A DNA stretch of 42,456 nucleotides from Okeania sp. SIO2B3 (GTDB taxonomy: Bacteria; Cyanobacteriota; Cyanobacteriia; Cyanobacteriales; Microcoleaceae), in NCBI RefSeq assembly GCF_010672525.1, contig NZ_JAAHGH010000015.1, forward strand, positions 54,097 through 96,552, read 5' to 3'. Under the pieces are notes generated by a model that had not been told where the DNA came from, ran no database searches, and was given only the letters and a program-made list of their open reading frames with translations. The first letter of the stretch is position 1. The number at the start of each line of letters is the position of its first letter. The position numbers were made by a program, and so were the translations under genes. This document shows, piece by piece, positions 1-30,235 of this stretch.

Positions 1-418
1 TTACCAACCAAACTTCAACAATATTATTCTCAGCATATAAAGGAATTTTTACTTCTTGGTCATATTTAACTGTTGTATCTGACACTTCTATAAGGAGAAA
101 TACATCTTCTGGTTGAGGATGTTGAGTCCTATAAAAATCTGGTCGTCGTTGCAGCAAAGCGATATCTGGTTCAGGTTCAGAATTATCATTCAATCTCACA
201 GGATTTTGAATTCTCACAGTAACAGTTTTTGCTAAACGCAAAAAGAATAGTTCGTTAATACGGTCCACACAAGCTGCGTGATGAATACCAATAGGGGACA
301 TTTTGACAATTTCTCCTCGGATTAGTTCTACTCGTTCATTTTCTTTTAATACTCCTGCTTCCAGCATTTTATAATATTGGTCTACAGTAAATAGTCGTCG
401 CAATAATTGTACAGACAT
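1..418 (-). CDS. Uma2 family endonuclease (DUF820), 3' end outside window
   Basis: The visible 139 codons begin MSVQLLRRLFTVDQYYKM and contain the Uma2/DUF820 landmarks: ERVELIRGEIVKMSPIG, then a PEPDIALL stretch, then LLIEVSDTTVKYDQEVKIP followed by LYAENNIVEVWLV. The acidic residues and the D-x-E-x-K series belong to the PD-(D/E)xK nuclease fold of this family, which is hugely expanded in cyanobacteria and whose biological role is unclear. The start is supported by an AAGGAG Shine-Dalgarno at 425-430. The gene lies downstream of, and on the same strand as, the ATP-grasp gene. It is probably unrelated, because Uma2 genes are scattered everywhere in these genomes. The C-terminus is cut by the window edge. 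Confidence 0.85.
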   Translation of the reverse strand, partial: MSVQLLRRLFTVDQYYKMLEAGVLKENERVELIRGEIVKMSPIGIHHAACVDRINELFFLRLAKTVTVRIQNPVRLNDNSEPEPDIALLQRRPDFYRTQHPQPEDVFLLIEVSDTTVKYDQEVKIPLYAENNIVEVWLV

Positions 419-496
419 TTTCAACTCCTTGAAAATAATTATATGAATTTGTTTATGTATAACAATTATATTTATTATAAATATTCTTGCCTAACT

Positions 497-1402
497 TTAA
501 CTTGTTAATAATTCTATCAAGTCTTCAGTTATCGGACAACCTGTTTCTCTTTCAAAATGAAGAAACATCGGACTAAAATTCGCCTCCAGGAAAACAAAAT
601 CTCCATTAGGTTTAAATCGCCAGTCAATACCAGTCCATTTTAATCCAAATGCTTTAGTAATAGTTAAACATTGTTGTTTCATATCCTCTGGTGTTTCTAA
701 ATAGATTAATTTTGCTCGTTTATCTTCCCGAAAATCTAGAGAACTACTCCTAATTTCAGCAGAATAAACTTTTTCGCCAATCACATAACTACGAATATTT
801 GTACCGGGAATAAATTCTTGGATAGTTACGGGAGAAATGCTTAATGCTAATTTCATCCGATTAATTTCTAAATGTTCTTTGGTTAAAAATTGAGTATGAG
901 AACCTCCATAAACAGGTTTAAAAATTACATCTTTAAATACTTGAGAAAATTCTAAAATTTCATCAGCATTATTAGTAATAAGAGTCGCTGGAATAGTCAC
1001 ACCTATTTTATTAGCTAAACTTAATTGCAAAGGTTTTTCTTTATGAAATTCATAAGCCTCCCAACCATTCACCCATTTTTCAGGTTTAGACCGCATAAAA
1101 GAACGTAATAAACCCATCGAATCATTAACTGCTATTCTCTCCTGATATAAATCAGTTAATTTCGGAACATTAACCCCGGCAAAAGTCCGCCAAAAAATTT
1201 TATTTATATCTGCTAAATTCCATTTTCTGCCATCTGGAAATATTAAACATCCCGTGTGAGTAATAGGTTGCCAAGAGATTTTTAACTTAGTGGGAAATAA
1301 ACGAGTATCTAAATAATCAACTGTTATTCCTTTTTCTGTGAGAGACTTTTTGAGATGGGCAGCATGAATATCTTCTTCACTGCCCAGGATTAAAATATTC
1401 AT
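497..1402 (-). CDS. ATP-grasp ligase, MvdD/PsnB-like graspetide macrocyclase candidate
   Basis: This 301-residue protein is an ATP-grasp ligase of the graspetide (omega-ester peptide) type. The family uses ATP to join Glu/Asp side-chain carboxyls to Thr/Ser hydroxyls (esters) or Lys amines (amides) of a precursor. Visible parts are an N-terminal pre-ATP-grasp domain with the DTRLFPTKLKI pattern (about residues 32-42), the nucleotide-binding FKPVYGG (161-167), QEFIPG (195-200), a basic/acidic strand R204...E216-R218, and the metal-binding series D260, E273 and N275 in GIDWRFKPNGDF and FLEANFSPMF. The tail GCPITEDLIELL resembles that of microviridin ligases. It lies 742 bp downstream of, and on the same strand as, a multi-core precursor with the TTxxxxEE motif, which is its likely substrate. 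No second ligase or acetyltransferase is visible, so simple ester-only chemistry is inferred. A general RimK-like role is the alternative. Confidence 0.82.
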   Translation of the reverse strand: MNILILGSEEDIHAAHLKKSLTEKGITVDYLDTRLFPTKLKISWQPITHTGCLIFPDGRKWNLADINKIFWRTFAGVNVPKLTDLYQERIAVNDSMGLLRSFMRSKPEKWVNGWEAYEFHKEKPLQLSLANKIGVTIPATLITNNADEILEFSQVFKDVIFKPVYGGSHTQFLTKEHLEINRMKLALSISPVTIQEFIPGTNIRSYVIGEKVYSAEIRSSSLDFREDKRAKLIYLETPEDMKQQCLTITKAFGLKWTGIDWRFKPNGDFVFLEANFSPMFLHFERETGCPITEDLIELLTS

Positions 1403-2144
1403 TAAAGTTATATGAAATACTAAAATTTTTGCTACAAATAGTTAGGCTGTTTCAAGGAGTCAGTCCTCAGGAGTCAGGAGGCACGGAAGGAATAGAATAA
1501 TACAATTTATCAAAAATTTTTCTACGTTTTATTGAGTAGGGGAGTAGGGGATAATTAAATAATTAATAATTTAGAATTAAGAATTTAGAATTACCTCTCC
1601 TTTAAAACGGAATTGATTGACTCAAAGGAAATTTTTTCTTTTTATCCCCTTAAAAAGGGAGGCTTTATACCACAATTTTTCGGTAAACATAAGAATAATT
1701 AATTATAGCTATGGCGCTAATTATCAAAAAGGTGACTCTTTATGTGTTAATGACTTAATAATTGAAGTGCTGCTCAGGAAGAAAAGGAAGACTTGAGAGA
1801 AAAAAAGCGTAGATATTATGAATTTGAATATATTTCTGCTTACAAGTTCGCTTTCTCCCTTTGTCTACTTTGTCTGAATTAACTAGATTAACTAAATTAG
1901 GACTTACCTAATAATGAATAATTAATAATTAATAATTAATAATTAATAATTAAACAATTCAGCTTTATTAGCCTCCCCTTTCAAAGGGAAAAAAGATTTT
2001 TTTCCTTGAGATTCAATCCTCTTCCTAAAAGGGATAGGTAATTATTAATTGTTAATTTTTAATTGCTGAAGCACTGACAATATATAGGATTTTGTGCGTT
2101 ACGCTATGGCTAACACACCTACCAATAGCTTTCCCGTTTATTAA
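1403..2144. other. Repeat-rich spacer between ligase and precursor genes
   Basis: I see no convincing gene in these 742 bp. The spacer holds two members of a dispersed element (about 1590-1690 and, inverted, 1970-2045), a heptanucleotide AATAATT-type tandem tract at about 1915-1955, and a segment at 1708-1765 that recurs around 9290-9350. The spacing is large for an operon, so the ligase may have its own promoter or be separated by later repeat insertion. Confidence 0.7.
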
Positions 2145-3416
2145 CTAAATAAAATTCAGGTTTAAATTGTCTAGAGATGAAACACCTTCTACGATCGCAA
2201 TCAAATCTCCTGATAGAGTAGATATATTAACTGAATTATTAACTATTTCAAAACTATAATCATTCAAAGTTCCTGATAACTGAATTCGATCTAAAGGAGT
2301 ATCAAAATTTTGAATTAAAGCAAAGTCTGAATCACCAAAACCAAGATAAAAAGGCGACCCTGGGGAAGAACCAAGTATAAATTGATCTACTCCTTCTGTT
2401 CCGGAAGTACCAACTAATATATCAATTTCTCCCGTTCCCGAATCACTAGGTATAATTCGGTCATTGATGATGTCATATCCAATAACGCTAACACCAACAA
2501 TTCTGGTATTGTTGCCGAAAGCATTAATAATATCATTACTATCATTGTCAGTAAAAAAACCAATGCGTTGAATTTCAAATTGTCCAAACTGAATGTAATG
2601 TTCTAAACCAGAACTAAATACTCCTGTGTTGATAGCAACATCAATATCAGGATAAGATTGCCGATAAATTTCTTCATTAAAATCTCCACCTTCTTCTCCT
2701 ATTGCCAAAGTAGTGACATCACCTTCTTCCGAACCTACTTGAGTGATAATTTCATTATTAATAGGAGGAGGAAAACCACCTTCCTCTCCTATTGCCAAAG
2801 TAGTGACACCACCTTCTTCTCCTAGTGCTAGAGTTGTTGCTATCCCTTCTTCAGAGCTTGGTTGAGTAATAGTTTCATTACTGATAGGAGTAGCACCACC
2901 TTCTTCTCCTACTGCTCTAGTTGTCGGTTCTACGGGTGGCACTCCTATTGGAGTCATACCACCTTCTTCTCCTATTGCTTGAGTGGTTGCGAAACCTTCT
3001 TCAGAGCTTGGTTGAGTAATAATTTCATTATTAATAGGAGTAGCACCACCTTCTTCTCCTATTACTTCAGTTGTCGGTTCTCGGGGTGGCACTCCTATTG
3101 GATCGATACCACCTTCTTCTCCCAGTGCTAAAGTCGTTGGTACAGGAAGATTACCACCTTCTTCTCCGATGGCTAAAGTTGTTGGTATAGGTTCACTGGA
3201 ACCACCTTCTTCTCCGATGGCTAGAGTTGTTGCTATCAGTTCGCCACCATTTTCTAAATCATCAAACGCTGTTGTTATAGCACCACCTTCTTCTCCGATG
3301 GCTAAAGTTGTTGCTATCAGTTGAGATGGGTCATTAAAAGTATTAGGGTTAGGTTCAACTTGAATTTTTTGTAAAGACTCAAGAACATTTAGGTCATAGT
3401 CAAATGGATGTGTCAT
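2145..3416 (-). CDS. Multi-core graspetide precursor fused to an RTX-like secretion domain
   Basis: The 423-residue product has three parts. Residues 1-35 look like a leader (MTHPFDYDLNVLESLQ...). Residues 36-244 hold ten cores with the pattern T-T-x-x-x-x-E-E-G-G, at 36, 63, 79, 94, 115, 144, 165, 194, 205 and 235. TTLAIGEEGG is commonest; variants are LAL, EVI, QAI and RAV. Four degenerate cores lie at 48, 133, 183 and 224. Residues 104-153 and 154-203 form a duplicated 50-residue block. TTxxxxEE is the known core motif of plesiocin-type graspetides, where two esters form per core. Residues 246-290 match the YPDIDVAINTGVFSSGLEHY module of secreted cyanobacterial proteins, and 330-423 resemble the terminal domain of RTX/haemolysin-type proteins, suggesting type I export. 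An AAGGA Shine-Dalgarno precedes the ATG. The ATP-grasp gene lies downstream. The modification and the export route are inferred. Confidence 0.85.
   Translation of the reverse strand: MTHPFDYDLNVLESLQKIQVEPNPNTFNDPSQLIATTLAIGEEGGAITTAFDDLENGGELIATTLAIGEEGGSSEPIPTTLAIGEEGGNLPVPTTLALGEEGGIDPIGVPPREPTTEVIGEEGGATPINNEIITQPSSEEGFATTQAIGEEGGMTPIGVPPVEPTTRAVGEEGGATPISNETITQPSSEEGIATTLALGEEGGVTTLAIGEEGGFPPPINNEIITQVGSEEGDVTTLAIGEEGGDFNEEIYRQSYPDIDVAINTGVFSSGLEHYIQFGQFEIQRIGFFTDNDSNDIINAFGNNTRIVGVSVIGYDIINDRIIPSDSGTGEIDILVGTSGTEGVDQFILGSSPGSPFYLGFGDSDFALIQNFDTPLDRIQLSGTLNDYSFEIVNNSVNISTLSGDLIAIVEGVSSLDNLNLNFI
2685..3311 (-). repeat. In-gene tandem core repeats (TTxxxxEEGG x10)
   Basis: This span encodes the ten canonical and four degenerate cores of the precursor. 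At DNA level it shows as recurring CCACCTTCTTCTCC blocks on the plus strand. A roughly 150-bp block encoding residues 104-153 is repeated immediately as residues 154-203, so the array grew by unequal duplication as well as by single-core copying. Confidence 0.85.
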
Positions 3417-24910: not shown

Positions 24911-26233
24911 TTGCTAGTAATTGAGGCCAAATTAAAAGGCAGTCAAAATCAGTACAAAGTTTTAGATGAAATTATTCTCACAGGTCAATTCATCAGGAAC
25001 AGTTGTTTGCGCTATTGGATGGATAATAAAAACGTCAAGCGCAACGACTTACAAAAACTTTGTTCTGTACTAGCAAAGGATAGTAATTTTCCTTGGGTGA
25101 AAAAGTTAAACTCTCAAGCAAGACAAGCATCAGCCGACAGGACATGGCAATCAATACAACGATTCTACAAAAATTGTAGACAGAAATTACCAGGTAAAAA
25201 GGCGGTGCGACCCCGCGACGACGACAGTCGCAAGGGAACGCGTACCAAGAGAGGCTATCCAAAATTCAAGAAGTTCACTCGTTCAGTAGAGTACAAATCG
25301 ACAGGTTATAAACTATCTGCAGACAGAAAGAAAATTGAGTTTAAAGATGGTTTTAAAGCTGGTGTATTTGAGTTGTGGACAAGTCGTGATTTAGTTTGGT
25401 ATTCAGAACAACAAATAAATCGTGTAAGAATTGTTAGACGTGCTGATGGTTATTATTGTCAATTTTTAGTAAATTCTCAGAGAAAAGAAACTCATAATTT
25501 TGAAGGCAATGTAGTAGGAATAGACTTAGGTTTAAATGCTTTTTATACTGATAGTAATGGTAAAGCGGTAGATAATCCTAAATATTTGAGAAAGTCACAA
25601 AGGCGGTTGAAAAAGCTACAGAGGATAGTATCGCGTCGCCATGAGAACGGTAAGAAACCTCAGTCAAATAACTACCACAAAGCCAGAAAGCAATTAGCTA
25701 GGCAGCACCTCAAAATCAGTAGACAGCGTAAAGACCATGCAGTAAAGACGGCACAGGCGCTAATCCAATCTAACGATTTGGTAGTATACGAAGATTTGAA
25801 GGTTAGTAACCTAGTGAAAAATCATCATTTAGCTAAGTCAATATCTGATGCAAGTTGGTATCAGTTCACGGAATGGCTAGAATATTATGCTAAGTTGCAT
25901 GGAATTGTTTGTGTAGCAGTGCCTCCACATTTCACAAGCCAAAATTGTTCAAATTGTGGTCAAACTGTTAAAAAATTGTTGTCTGTTAGGACTCACAAAT
26001 GTCCTCACTGTGGTTATATAGCAGACCGTGACCATAACGCTGCAAGGAACATTTTAGCTAAAGGTGTAGAAATGTTAGGAGCAATAGTCAACAGTACCGA
26101 GGGGCACTCGGAATCTGGGGGAAACCCAAAAGCTACGGGAGAGTCAGACCTCTGGATTAGTAATAGCAATATTTCTAATTTAAGTTGTCTCTATGAGCGT
26201 AGAATCATCAATGATGAGAATCCCGCATCATAA
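24911..26233 (+). CDS. tnpB: TnpB RNA-guided nuclease-type protein of IS200/IS605 element
   Basis: The 440-residue TnpB has a full N-terminal domain (IEAKLKGSQNQY, FIRNSCLRYWMDN), a RuvC-like core with D205 (VVGIDLGLNAFYT), E294 (LVVYEDLKVSNLV) and the final Asp in ADRDHNAARNI (372-374), and a zinc ribbon CSNCG...CPHCG (C346, C349, C364, C367). TnpB proteins are guide-RNA-directed DNA nucleases that help the element persist after excision. The best start is a TTG at 24911, because no in-frame ATG lies upstream and the family begins near M-x-V-x-E. Seventeen extra residues (98-114, AVRPRDDDSRKGTRTKR) interrupt the usual PGKKGYPKFKKF motif; they derive from a GC-rich repeat inserted in frame. 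Confidence 0.9.
   Translation: MLVIEAKLKGSQNQYKVLDEIILTGQFIRNSCLRYWMDNKNVKRNDLQKLCSVLAKDSNFPWVKKLNSQARQASADRTWQSIQRFYKNCRQKLPGKKAVRPRDDDSRKGTRTKRGYPKFKKFTRSVEYKSTGYKLSADRKKIEFKDGFKAGVFELWTSRDLVWYSEQQINRVRIVRRADGYYCQFLVNSQRKETHNFEGNVVGIDLGLNAFYTDSNGKAVDNPKYLRKSQRRLKKLQRIVSRRHENGKKPQSNNYHKARKQLARQHLKISRQRKDHAVKTAQALIQSNDLVVYEDLKVSNLVKNHHLAKSISDASWYQFTEWLEYYAKLHGIVCVAVPPHFTSQNCSNCGQTVKKLLSVRTHKCPHCGYIADRDHNAARNILAKGVEMLGAIVNSTEGHSESGGNPKATGESDLWISNSNISNLSCLYERRIINDENPAS
25202..25252 (+). repeat. 51-bp GC-rich repeat inserted in frame in tnpB
   Basis: The insert contains GCGGTGCGACCCCGCGACGA...AGTCGCAAGGGAACGC...ACCAAGAGAG, which matches the intergenic GC-rich block at 16978-17090. Its length is a multiple of three and it reads without a stop as 17 residues. 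Removing it gives the canonical PGKK-GYPKFKKF sequence of TnpB. Confidence 0.85.
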
Positions 26234-27307: not shown

Positions 27308-30235
27308 TCAAAATAATTGTGAGATAATCTGCAAACTCATTTCATCAGATAACTCCCCTTGCCGATTTTCCCTGGCGACTTTTTGCAAAAAACATCGATA
27401 ATTCCGCCAAACAGTCTTAGTATTCGGATGCTCTTTTCCTAGTTGTGAAAACAAAATAAGTAAAGCTTGCACATACAAAGGTTCAGCTTCGGTGTATCGC
27501 CCTTGGGAGTAGTAGAGATTTGCCAAGCCGTTGAGACTGGAGGCAATATTTGGATGTGCTGACTTTAGTAGTTGTTTATACATCTCTAATGCTTCTATTA
27601 ACAGGGGTTCAGCTTCGGTGTATCGCTCTTGGGAGTAGTAGAGATTTGCCAAGCCGTTGAGAGTGTAGGCAATATCTGGATGTGCTGACTTTAGTAGTTG
27701 TTTATACATCTTCAACGCTTCTTTATACAAAGGTTCAGCTTCGGTGTATCGCCCTTGGGATTTGTAGAGACTTGCCAGGTTGTGGAAACTGATGGCAATA
27801 TCTGGATGTGCAGACCCTAGCAGTTGCTTTCTCATCTCCAATGCTTCTATTAACAGGGGTTCAGCTTCGGTGTATCGCTCTTGGGAGTAGTAGAGATTTG
27901 CCAAGCCGTTGAGAGTGTAGGCAATATCTGGATGTGCTGACTTTAGTAGTTGTTTATACATCTTCAACGCTTCTTTATACAAAGGTTCAGCTTCGGTGTA
28001 TCGCCCTTGGGATTTGTAGAGACTTGCCAGGTTGTGGAAACTGATGGCAATATCTGGATGTGCAGACCCTAGCAGTTGCTTTCTCATCTCCAATGCTTCT
28101 ATTAACAGGGGTTCAGCTTCGGTGTATCGCTCTTGGGAGTAGTAGAGATTTGCCAAGCCGTTGAGAGTGTAGGCAATATCTGGATGTGCTGACCCTAGCA
28201 GTTGCTTTCTCATCTCCAATGCTTCTATTAACAGGGGTTCAGCTTCGGTGTATCGCTCTTGGGAGTAGTAGAGATTTGCCAAGCCGTTGAGAGTGTAGGC
28301 AATATCTGGATGTGCTGACCCTTGTAGTTGTTTATACATCTTCAACGCTTCTTTATACAAAGGTTCAGCTTCGGTGTATCGCCCTTGGGATTTGTAGAGA
28401 CTTGCCAGGTTGTGGAGACTGATGACAATATATGGATGTGCAGACCCTAGCAGTTGCTTTCTCATCTCCAATGCTCCTATTAACAGGGGTTCAGCTTCGG
28501 TGTATCGTCCTTGATCATAGTAGAGAAGTGCCCAGCCATTGAGACTTTGGGCAATATCTGGATGTACCGATCCTAGCAATTGCTTTCTCATTTCCAATCC
28601 TTCTTTATACAAAGGTTCAGCTTCGGTGTATCGCCCTTGAGCAGAGTAGAGATTTGCCAGGTTGTTGAGACTTTGGGCAATATCTGGATGTGCCGACTCT
28701 AGCAGTTGCTTTCTCATTGCCAATGCTTCTAAACACAAAGATTCTGCTTCCGTATATCGTCCTTGGAAGCGGTAGAGAACTGCTAGGTTGTTGAGGCTGG
28801 AGGCAATAGATGAATGTGCCGGCCCTAGCAGTTGCTTTCTCATTTCCAATGCTTCTATTAACAAGGGTTCAGCTTCGGTGTATCGCCCTTGATAATAGTA
28901 GAGAAATGCCAGCTTGTGGAGACTGGTGGCAATAGATGGATGTGCTTTGCCAAACCGACTTTTAGTAATATCCAAGCATTTTTCATGCCAAGATTGAGCT
29001 GACTGATAAAATCCCTGACCTTCATAGAATCTGCCCAAACCAAGAAAAGGCGAGATTAAATCTTTATCAGTTAACCAGTCGGTCAAATTTTCTGCTACTT
29101 CCTCAAGATGGCGAATAGCAGGTTCAACCGCTAAAATCTCCTCCCTAACAGGTTTATCAGGAATTTCCTTCGCCTCTGCCACCATCACCCGACAAATACC
29201 CCGTTTCATTTCCTCAACGGAGTCAGACTCAGACAACTTCCCTCTGAAAAATTCTCGAATCAGTGGATGCAACTCATAACTCCCCTCACCCACTCGTTGC
29301 AGCAGACTTAAATTCACCAACCCATAATCTCGCCTATCCTCCAAATCTTCCTCATCTACCTCTGGCAAACACCCTGCCACCAAAGACCAAGGAATAGCTG
29401 CCGGAGCAAACAGACTCAACAACCGCCCCAACTCCCGCTCATCCTCATCCAATTCTTGCCAACTCAACTCAAAAGCAGCCGCAACTCCCCGCTTCGCAGT
29501 CATATCCTGAGAATATATTTCCATAGATTTATGCTCTAACCGTTTTGACTCCAACCGTTTTCGTGCTTTTGCCAAAGACAAATCTGATTTTCGCTCCAAA
29601 TAACGCGCCACCAACTCCAACCCCAAGGGCAAAAATCCCAAATCTGCACACAACACCTTTGCCTCTTCCATCTCCCGTTGTATCCGCGTCTCCCCAACAA
29701 AGGAAACCAACAATTCCAAAGCCGCATCCTCATCCAACACCTCTAACTCCAACCTGTGGAAAGATTGCGTCAAGTATTTTTGACGGGTAGTTATCAACAC
29801 CTTAAACCGAGCTTCCCCAGGAGGTAGAAAATCCGAAATCTCCTCATATTCAACCACATCATCAAAAATTACCAGAACATCACCCTGCAACCAATTACGC
29901 CAACAGTAAGCCACTTGAGTCTTCAAGTCATCATCTTTTGAAGGATTTAAGTTTAGTTGCGACTTAGCAAAATTAACAATCTGAATTCCTACATCCACAC
30001 CACGCCCCTCCAACCAACAAACCCCGCCGGGATAAGTCTTTTGCTGGAGGTGATCACGAGCATATTGGAGAGCAAGTTCAGTTTTACCGATACCACCCAT
30101 ACCAGTAATAGAAGTAATTGCTACTCGTTCAGTTGTTTGTAACTGTTGGTGTAGGGTATCCATTACCTCATCCCGACCAACAAAATTCTTAGCGCCACTC
30201 CGGCGACTAAAATTTTCAGGAATGCCTTTTGGCAC
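27308..30235 (-). CDS. STAND NTPase: NB-ARC domain plus kinesin-light-chain-type TPR array
   Basis: The 975-residue protein has NB-ARC motifs at 45-52 (GMGGIGKT, Walker A), 121-126 (LVIFDD, Walker B), 147-151 (LITTR, sensor) and 200-207 (GFLPLGLE). These are followed by a winged-helix region and, from about 393, one divergent and twelve 42-residue TPR units of the type ...LANLYYSQ[E/G]RYTEAEPL... . STAND proteins are signal-triggered oligomerising switches; several are antiviral sensors, but the role here is unknown. The start used is GTG. The frame continues upstream without a shift through 14 sense codons to a TGA that ends the preceding ORF, so the two are probably one gene split by a nonsense codon. 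Confidence 0.88.
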   Translation of the reverse strand: MPKGIPENFSRRSGAKNFVGRDEVMDTLHQQLQTTERVAITSITGMGGIGKTELALQYARDHLQQKTYPGGVCWLEGRGVDVGIQIVNFAKSQLNLNPSKDDDLKTQVAYCWRNWLQGDVLVIFDDVVEYEEISDFLPPGEARFKVLITTRQKYLTQSFHRLELEVLDEDAALELLVSFVGETRIQREMEEAKVLCADLGFLPLGLELVARYLERKSDLSLAKARKRLESKRLEHKSMEIYSQDMTAKRGVAAAFELSWQELDEDERELGRLLSLFAPAAIPWSLVAGCLPEVDEEDLEDRRDYGLVNLSLLQRVGEGSYELHPLIREFFRGKLSESDSVEEMKRGICRVMVAEAKEIPDKPVREEILAVEPAIRHLEEVAENLTDWLTDKDLISPFLGLGRFYEGQGFYQSAQSWHEKCLDITKSRFGKAHPSIATSLHKLAFLYYYQGRYTEAEPLLIEALEMRKQLLGPAHSSIASSLNNLAVLYRFQGRYTEAESLCLEALAMRKQLLESAHPDIAQSLNNLANLYSAQGRYTEAEPLYKEGLEMRKQLLGSVHPDIAQSLNGWALLYYDQGRYTEAEPLLIGALEMRKQLLGSAHPYIVISLHNLASLYKSQGRYTEAEPLYKEALKMYKQLQGSAHPDIAYTLNGLANLYYSQERYTEAEPLLIEALEMRKQLLGSAHPDIAYTLNGLANLYYSQERYTEAEPLLIEALEMRKQLLGSAHPDIAISFHNLASLYKSQGRYTEAEPLYKEALKMYKQLLKSAHPDIAYTLNGLANLYYSQERYTEAEPLLIEALEMRKQLLGSAHPDIAISFHNLASLYKSQGRYTEAEPLYKEALKMYKQLLKSAHPDIAYTLNGLANLYYSQERYTEAEPLLIEALEMYKQLLKSAHPNIASSLNGLANLYYSQGRYTEAEPLYVQALLILFSQLGKEHPNTKTVWRNYRCFLQKVARENRQGELSDEMSLQIISQLF
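27422..28933 (-). repeat. Twelve 126-bp TPR-coding tandem repeats
   Basis: The units encode residues 435-938. Two adjacent units (protein copies 7 and 8) are identical, and units 9-10 and 11-12 are nearly identical as pairs. At DNA level this is a roughly 252-bp segment repeated around 27718-27969 and 27970-28221. This indicates recent unequal exchange or gene conversion. Confidence 0.88.

Follow-up and report, generated by a model that had tools for sequence, protein, structure and literature searches.

Positions 497 to 3,416 of a 42,456-nucleotide stretch of Okeania sp. SIO2B3 DNA (hereafter the window; the source genome is 10 Mb) carry, on the minus strand, genes for a 423-residue multi-core precursor protein and a graspetide-type ATP-grasp ligase. 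Plesiocin, of graspetide group 2, is built on the TTxxxxEE core, and its precursor is named PsnA. We suggest that the Okeania locus yields a plesiocin-like, multi-headed protein for secretion, which would probably inhibit proteases and take its specificity from core position 3; we give this reading a probability of roughly 0.55. It is based on the two genes, the constraint on the core, the co-occurrence of core and ligase family, PsnB as the nearest solved enzyme, homology to the ends of RTX proteins and the presence of short-peptide relatives.

Along the minus strand, the precursor open reading frame (ORF; 2145-3416) is followed by a 742-bp interval (1403-2144) and the 301-residue ligase ORF (497-1402). 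The interval holds no credible ORF, the longest being 59 residues on the opposite strand. An earlier model-made reading of the DNA letters (the sequence-only reading) had described a 423-residue ORF with ten TTxxxxEEGG cores and an ATP-grasp ligase after it on the same strand. We counted exactly ten TT-x4-EE-GG motifs in 2145-3416 and placed the ligase 742 bp downstream, so both descriptions held. The leader region of the precursor (residues 1-35; 3312-3416) contains an HPF motif conserved in the family, and no double-glycine site was found in it before core 1. The sequence TTLAIGEEGG occurs in cores 1 (3282-3311), 2 (3201-3230), 3 (3153-3182), 9 (2775-2804) and 10 (2685-2714), and TTLALGEEGG in cores 4 (3108-3137) and 8 (2808-2837), while cores 5, 6 and 7 are TTEVIGEEGG (3045-3074), TTQAIGEEGG (2958-2987) and TTRAVGEEGG (2895-2924), giving the position-3 series LLLLEQRLLL. 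The linkers vary in length from 1 to 20 residues. The earlier count had left out a degenerate unit, TTAFDDLENGG (3243-3275), as well as three half cores of the form ITQ[PV][SG]SEE, all without the first Thr: ITQPSSEE at 2997-3020 and 2847-2870, and ITQVGSEE at 2724-2747.

To judge the origin of the ten cores, the same protein was shuffled 20,000 times; the shuffles had a mean of 0.0008 motifs and a maximum of 1, which rules out a chance repeat. A simple-repeat artefact was also ruled out, because the Thr codons at core position 1 and the linker lengths differ: all four Thr codons are used at this position for a constant residue, while each of the other fixed positions keeps to a single codon or almost to one. 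The TTxxxxEE motif named in the sequence-only reading is present, but the actual core is tighter, T-T-x-A-[L/I/V]-G-E-E-G-G with position 3 free, a constraint on the loop that had been missed. In a first count of 185 motifs, selected by [TS][TS]x4[ED][ED] so that positions 1, 2, 7 and 8 were preset, we found Ala in 169 at position 4, Leu, Ile or Val in 173 at position 5, Gly in 179 at position 6, and Gly in 183 and 176 at positions 9 and 10. Considering that this count was pattern-selected at the Thr and Glu positions, a second one was anchored only on A4, G6, G9 and G10 in 43 precursors, each pre-chosen for at least one TTxxxxEE. Among its 163 motifs, positions 1, 2, 7 and 8 were Thr in 156, Thr in 161, Glu in 162 and Glu in 163, respectively. 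Position 3 was Leu in 105, Gln in 18, Glu in 13, Met in 12 and Arg in 7, with other residues including Ala, Lys and Val, and up to five residue types were seen at this position within one long-form protein. A fixed frame with one chemically free position would fit, at the level of sequence, a protease inhibitor with a P1-like residue.

The top NCBIfam matches of the ligase were TIGR04187 (140 bits), MvdD (107) and MvdC (90), all below the cut-offs; together with the best solved match, PsnB, they bear out the graspetide type proposed in the sequence-only reading. In Pfam, the RimK-type ATP-grasp domain scored above its cut-off and the MvdD pre-ATP-grasp domain below it. When compared with solved proteins, the ligase matched 7drm best (111 bits, E 6e-31), followed by 5ig9 (73 bits) and 9bou (58). 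Entry 7drm is PsnB, and 5ig9/5ig8 are MdnC/MdnB (PMC10452190; here and below, papers are cited for the parts of them available to us). The six best solved matches outscore the two glutamate ligases listed, and five of the six are named RiPP (ribosomally synthesized and post-translationally modified peptide) ligases, namely PsnB, MdnC, MdnB, CdnC and AMdnB. Relatives at 95-97% identity come from records named Okeania, a marine cyanobacterium. In a quick ligase tree, rooted by choice on three more distant cyanobacterial ATP-grasp-like ORFs and containing several long branches, 50 family rows formed one clade (Shimodaira-Hasegawa-like approximate likelihood ratio test 100), apart from the rows that group with microviridin MdnB/MdnC in another part of the tree; AMdnC lies outside this tree. 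AlphaFold2 models of the ligase and of the C-terminal domain of the precursor, built from alignments of 7 and 6 sequences, had a mean predicted local distance difference test score of 39 and 38, respectively, and were set aside.

Co-occurrence of precursor and ligase was analyzed in two samples. Among 118 relatives, where at least 50% identity defined a family ligase and short remnants in G010 and G043 were uncounted, 28 genomes had the ligase, G034 only as a 30-residue piece at a contig end. The core DNA pattern, TTLA[aliphatic]GEEGG, was found in 20 of the 118, all among the 28, and the reversed control pattern in 0. In 388 genomes drawn from the class, some of them common to the first sample, a ligase at E <=1e-30 was present in 32 and the core pattern in 25, all 25 among the 32 (Fisher 2e-33, relatedness ignored); the reversed control was found in 1 genome. 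Every genome with the core pattern thus had the ligase (20/20 and 25/25), in line with the co-occurrence in related genomes that the sequence-only reading had proposed as a check. At the level of loci, 61 were examined: 52 with a ligase at least 50% identical, 6 at 44.7-47.8% and 3 at about 33%. A TTxxxxEE ORF was adjacent at 43/52, with a gap of 10-29 bp at 11. The remaining nine comprise four at or near a contig edge (L048, L049, L067, L149), three with a coreless HPF-leader ORF (L061, L062, L158), one with a broken ligase (L064) and one fragment (L167); L048 and L068, at two contig ends within one genome, probably belong to a single locus. Precursor and ligase lie on separate contigs in G127 and G173, both precursors being short with HPF and GG, and an additional short precursor lies at a distance from the ligase in G034 and G021; the ligase is present in all four genomes. 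M-x(0-7)-PF opens 39/43 precursors, with PF mostly followed by D, E, N or G. Graspetide leader motifs in print include Phhx(1,2)h (PMC8939145) and RPFG (PMC13003496); considering the usual residue after PF, the strict form of Phhx(1,2)h does not describe these leaders.

If the ligase did something else, such as forming lactams or a single ester per core or adding glutamate, or left the window precursor untouched, the missed NCBIfam thresholds, the 742-bp gap between the two genes and the unlinked genes of two genomes would fit. However, the genome-level co-occurrence is strict, the two genes are neighbours at most family loci, the Thr-Thr and Glu-Glu pairs are conserved, the ten window cores contain no Lys and the nearest solved enzyme is PsnB. 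Such another activity is therefore very improbable.

The 43 precursors occur in two forms. The short form (30/43) has about 100 residues (75-135 as read) and 1-4 cores, and a simple pattern detected a GG-type site before the first core in 23 of the 29 scanned. Matches to a C39 exporter, HlyD or PpiC were present in the fetched flanks of 12/30 short-form loci, with Pfam confirmation at L058, and absent from those of the other 18, some of which were short. The long form (13/43) has 320-586 residues with carrier domains. Nine of these are of the Okeania type, the complete ones having 405-488 residues and 8-12 cores, and one in a Trichodesmium record (L047) is interrupted by the contig end. The others are L054 (456 residues), L060 (586, with two to three Calx-beta stretches), L152 (374) and L153 (320); no exporter-module match was found in the flanks of L054, L060 and L153, and L152 had one HlyD-like match. 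The sequence-only reading had caught the precursor and ligase pair but missed both the relatives of about 100 residues with double-glycine leaders and the RTX-like C-terminal domain. The short form is presumably the older one, with the long form derived from it. While the long form required at least three state changes on a PsnB-rooted tree, the approximately unbiased test did not reject a single origin (p 0.233), and without PsnB the Calx-beta locus grouped with the Okeania clade (support 97/75.6). As such, we limit the claim to a difference in carriers and make none for independent origins. Short GG-leader precursors were also observed in genomes carrying the long form (L072:825-1205 in G034 and L073:3100-3465 in G021), and in these genomes a single ligase may thus act on two kinds of substrate.

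The non-core part of the window precursor, residues 245-423, makes up about 42% of the protein. It starts with a YxxxYPDV-type repeat (residues 245-292; 2541-2684), common to other large proteins of the same genome, and ends with a domain (residues 293-423; 2148-2540) homologous to the C-terminal part of cyanobacterial RTX proteins, which we propose as a type I secretion signal. This domain matched parts of many cyanobacterial proteins, with at least one match in 42/59 genomes. At least three GGxGxDxx repeats were present in 9 of 12 homologous ORFs hand-picked by length, most but not all having a similar tail by eye, and one plasmid-borne homologue (E 9e-3), which matches PF00353, bears the annotation 'type I secretion target repeat protein'. 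Because the C-terminal 130 or so residues resemble the ends of RTX proteins, type I secretion of the window precursor is likely.

We infer ester formation and its connectivity, secretion, inhibition and the role of position 3 as follows. With the HPF leader as its binding site, the ligase would form two nested Thr-Glu esters per T-T-x-A-[LIV]-G-E-E core, for a total of up to 20 over ten cores, with possibly one more in each half core. The product would be the whole protein rather than a small peptide, exported through its RTX-like C-terminal domain by a type I system encoded elsewhere. Outside the cell, the rigid hairpins would together form a multi-headed inhibitor of serine proteases, in which position 3, alone chemically diverse within the core, would set the specificity of each head.

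A different fate of the chain would be cutting between the cores after modification, which would release about ten bicyclic peptides and leave the C-terminal domain merely to export the precursor. The GG that ends most cores (positions 9 and 10 in both the window and the first count) could be a cutting site, and many short relatives have a GG leader, with C39, HlyD or PpiC genes near some of them. However, no C39, HlyD or PpiC match was found in the window or in the flanks (0-12 kb a side) of 11 Okeania-type stretches from 10 genomes, position 10 is Pro in 31/39 motifs of the second system described below, and the linkers show no common cutting motif by eye. We consider this processing improbable.

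The esters could also be staples of an extracellular, protease-resistant spacer or matrix protein, in which the cores stiffen a stalk and the carrier domains do the work. The carriers do look adhesin- or matrix-like, with Calx-beta in L060, YPDV repeats shared with large proteins of the same genome and the RTX-like end, and the core number varies among close relatives of the window precursor (9, 12, 11 and 9 vs 10), as in spacer arrays. While these features would fit a stalk, the same core and ligase family are found in peptides of about 100 residues, mostly with a GG-type site, which points to the core also serving as an active small molecule, and a spacer has no obvious need for A4 and G6 together with a chemically diverse position 3. 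A purely structural role thus seems rather unlikely.

Several results weigh against the secreted multi-headed inhibitor. The NCBIfam scores of the ligase lie under the curated cut-offs (350 for TIGR04187, 475 for MvdD and 425 for MvdC). PsnB was not resolved as sister of the family and stands at an open fork with other rows, and therefore the tree neither supports nor contradicts a sister relation. The core counts include close relatives and hence are not independent, and in the long forms position 5 is as variable as position 3 (1.74 vs 1.73 bits), though mainly Leu, Ile or Val. Beside the family ligase, L061, L062 and L158 have an HPF-leader ORF lacking cores, and at six loci whose ligase is 44.7-47.8% identical, no core ORF is linked to it; an unlinked precursor is present in two of these genomes, however. 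As for secretion, the window protein has no RTX nonapeptide (GGxGxDxxx) repeats and no Pfam match at E up to 1, and no counterpart of the exporter genes of a short-type locus was matched in the window. A genome-wide exporter search, which covered the HlyB family, found an HlyB-like ORF elsewhere in the source genome just below the curated cut-off (722.3 bits vs 725.55), and the same search gave matches in 14/14 control genomes, above the cut-off in 1. The coreless HPF-leader ORFs (L061:8543-8692, L062:9794-9955 and L158:7819-8031) may be substrates that were lost or are of another kind; a protein with an RTX repeat match (PF00353) lies upstream of the ligase in the last of these loci (L158:5874-6974).

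A second TTxxxxEE system was found at L070, L071 and L074 (G002, G003, G028), with a ligase only about 33% identical to the window family. Its precursor has about 285 residues, 10-13 TTxxxxEE cores with fixed Ala at position 4 and Gly at position 6, and an N-terminal domain; the HPF leader was not found in this system, and the L070 precursor had no Pfam match. The ligase gene follows the precursor gene, with a 10-bp overlap in L070 (L070:7793-9543), and the best solved match of the L070 ligase is also PsnB. Both systems are present in G002 and G003. The source genome of the window contains another graspetide-like ATP-grasp near a DUF1350 gene (L077:6032-6961; TIGR04187, 158.6 bits, below the cut-off), with no precursor recognised.

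Comparing the Okeania locus with known systems, plesiocin is alike in the TTxxxxEE core, in tandem cores and in a single ligase, PsnB being the closest solved relative of the window ligase. In contrast to plesiocin, the Okeania precursor has ten cores (8-12 in the complete precursors of its type), a fixed loop xA[LIV]G with an EEGG end, an HPF leader, a 179-residue C-terminal carrier with an RTX-like end and a cyanobacterial host. Published work describes plesiocin as a tetravalent molecule whose repeats carry two esters each (PMC12291112) and as an inhibitor of serine proteases that gains potency with increasing motif number (PMC13097080), and the reference list of the latter paper includes a title on bifunctionality given to plesiocin. 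The same paper describes unusually large precursors in graspetide groups 15 and 41, and often long precursors with repeating motifs in groups 34 and 35, the loci of group 35 having only synthetase and precursor (PMC13097080). Groups 34 and 35, which we compared with the Okeania family by description only, are thus alike in their long repeat-motif precursors, and the locus, called new in the sequence-only reading, stands as new only as a variant with a secretion-type domain. In the multi-core microviridin system AMdnA/AMdnC of Anabaena PCC 7120, several cores of a single precursor are also cyclized, distributively, by one ATP-grasp ligase, but AMdnA has three microviridin cores with another motif, and the available part of the paper mentions no carrier protein (PMC5934393).

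With respect to export, cyanobacterial RTX proteins and other type I substrates have a C-terminal domain homologous to that of the window precursor, which differs in lacking the nonapeptide repeats. Cyanobacterial bacteriocin groups I, II and VI have clusters with a C39 exporter, HlyD and SurA (PMC3140520), similar to the 12 short-precursor loci above but not to the Okeania-type loci, whose fetched flanks gave no such match. Makarova et al. reported repeated cores in cluster 13 and an association with C39/HlyD, and we met no RTX-type carriers in the available part of that work (PMC8939145). The ThfB ligase can cyclize stretches of up to 258 residues, and ester-stapling of proteins has been shown with it as engineering (PMC12291112). 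Our searches, which covered papers outside subscription, brought up no graspetide precursor reported to carry a type I secretion domain. What appears to be new is that a protein with a secretion-type domain presumably undergoes plesiocin-like chemistry, and that its cyanobacterial family occurs in peptide as well as protein states.

The neighbours common to the Okeania loci look unrelated to the pathway: a Uma2 array, a DUF1995 gene, and metallophosphatase-like and rRNA-methyltransferase-like genes, the last two named by eye. The Uma2-like genes lie in tandem downstream of the ligase in the window (2-424) and at L041:6345-8521, one of them Pfam-checked, and have relatives at six Okeania/Trichodesmium-type loci. 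Farther away, the window contains an IS605 OrfB/TnpB-type transposase gene (24911-26233; PF01385, PF07282) and an NB-ARC protein with a long array of highly similar TPR repeats (27308-30235).

Most discussion of graspetides treats them as small peptides released from a leader. In this case, a single ligase family is paired, within one phylum, both with precursors of about 100 residues and with carrier proteins of 320-586 residues. Since in relatives small peptides are the partners of this enzyme family, the peptide-stapling chemistry seems to be used on whole proteins too. The TTxAxGEE cassette is found on carriers with an RTX-like end, with Calx-beta domains and, with a separate ligase, with an N-terminal domain of no assigned family (L070, L071 and L074). 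Tentatively, and at somewhat less than even odds, a RiPP modification may have turned into a protein-decorating module, in which the cassette and its ATP-grasp ligase act on unrelated carriers, yielding secreted proteins that bear as many as 12-13 stapled, protease-reactive heads with one specificity residue apiece, and export in Okeania would have switched from the double-glycine/C39 route to type I. The pairing opens to testing how a ligase handles at least ten cores, whether ester-stapled hairpins function within full-size secreted proteins, and whether a loop residue determines protease specificity. If this is true, the family would offer natural templates for multi-specific inhibitors and for the ester-stapling of proteins.

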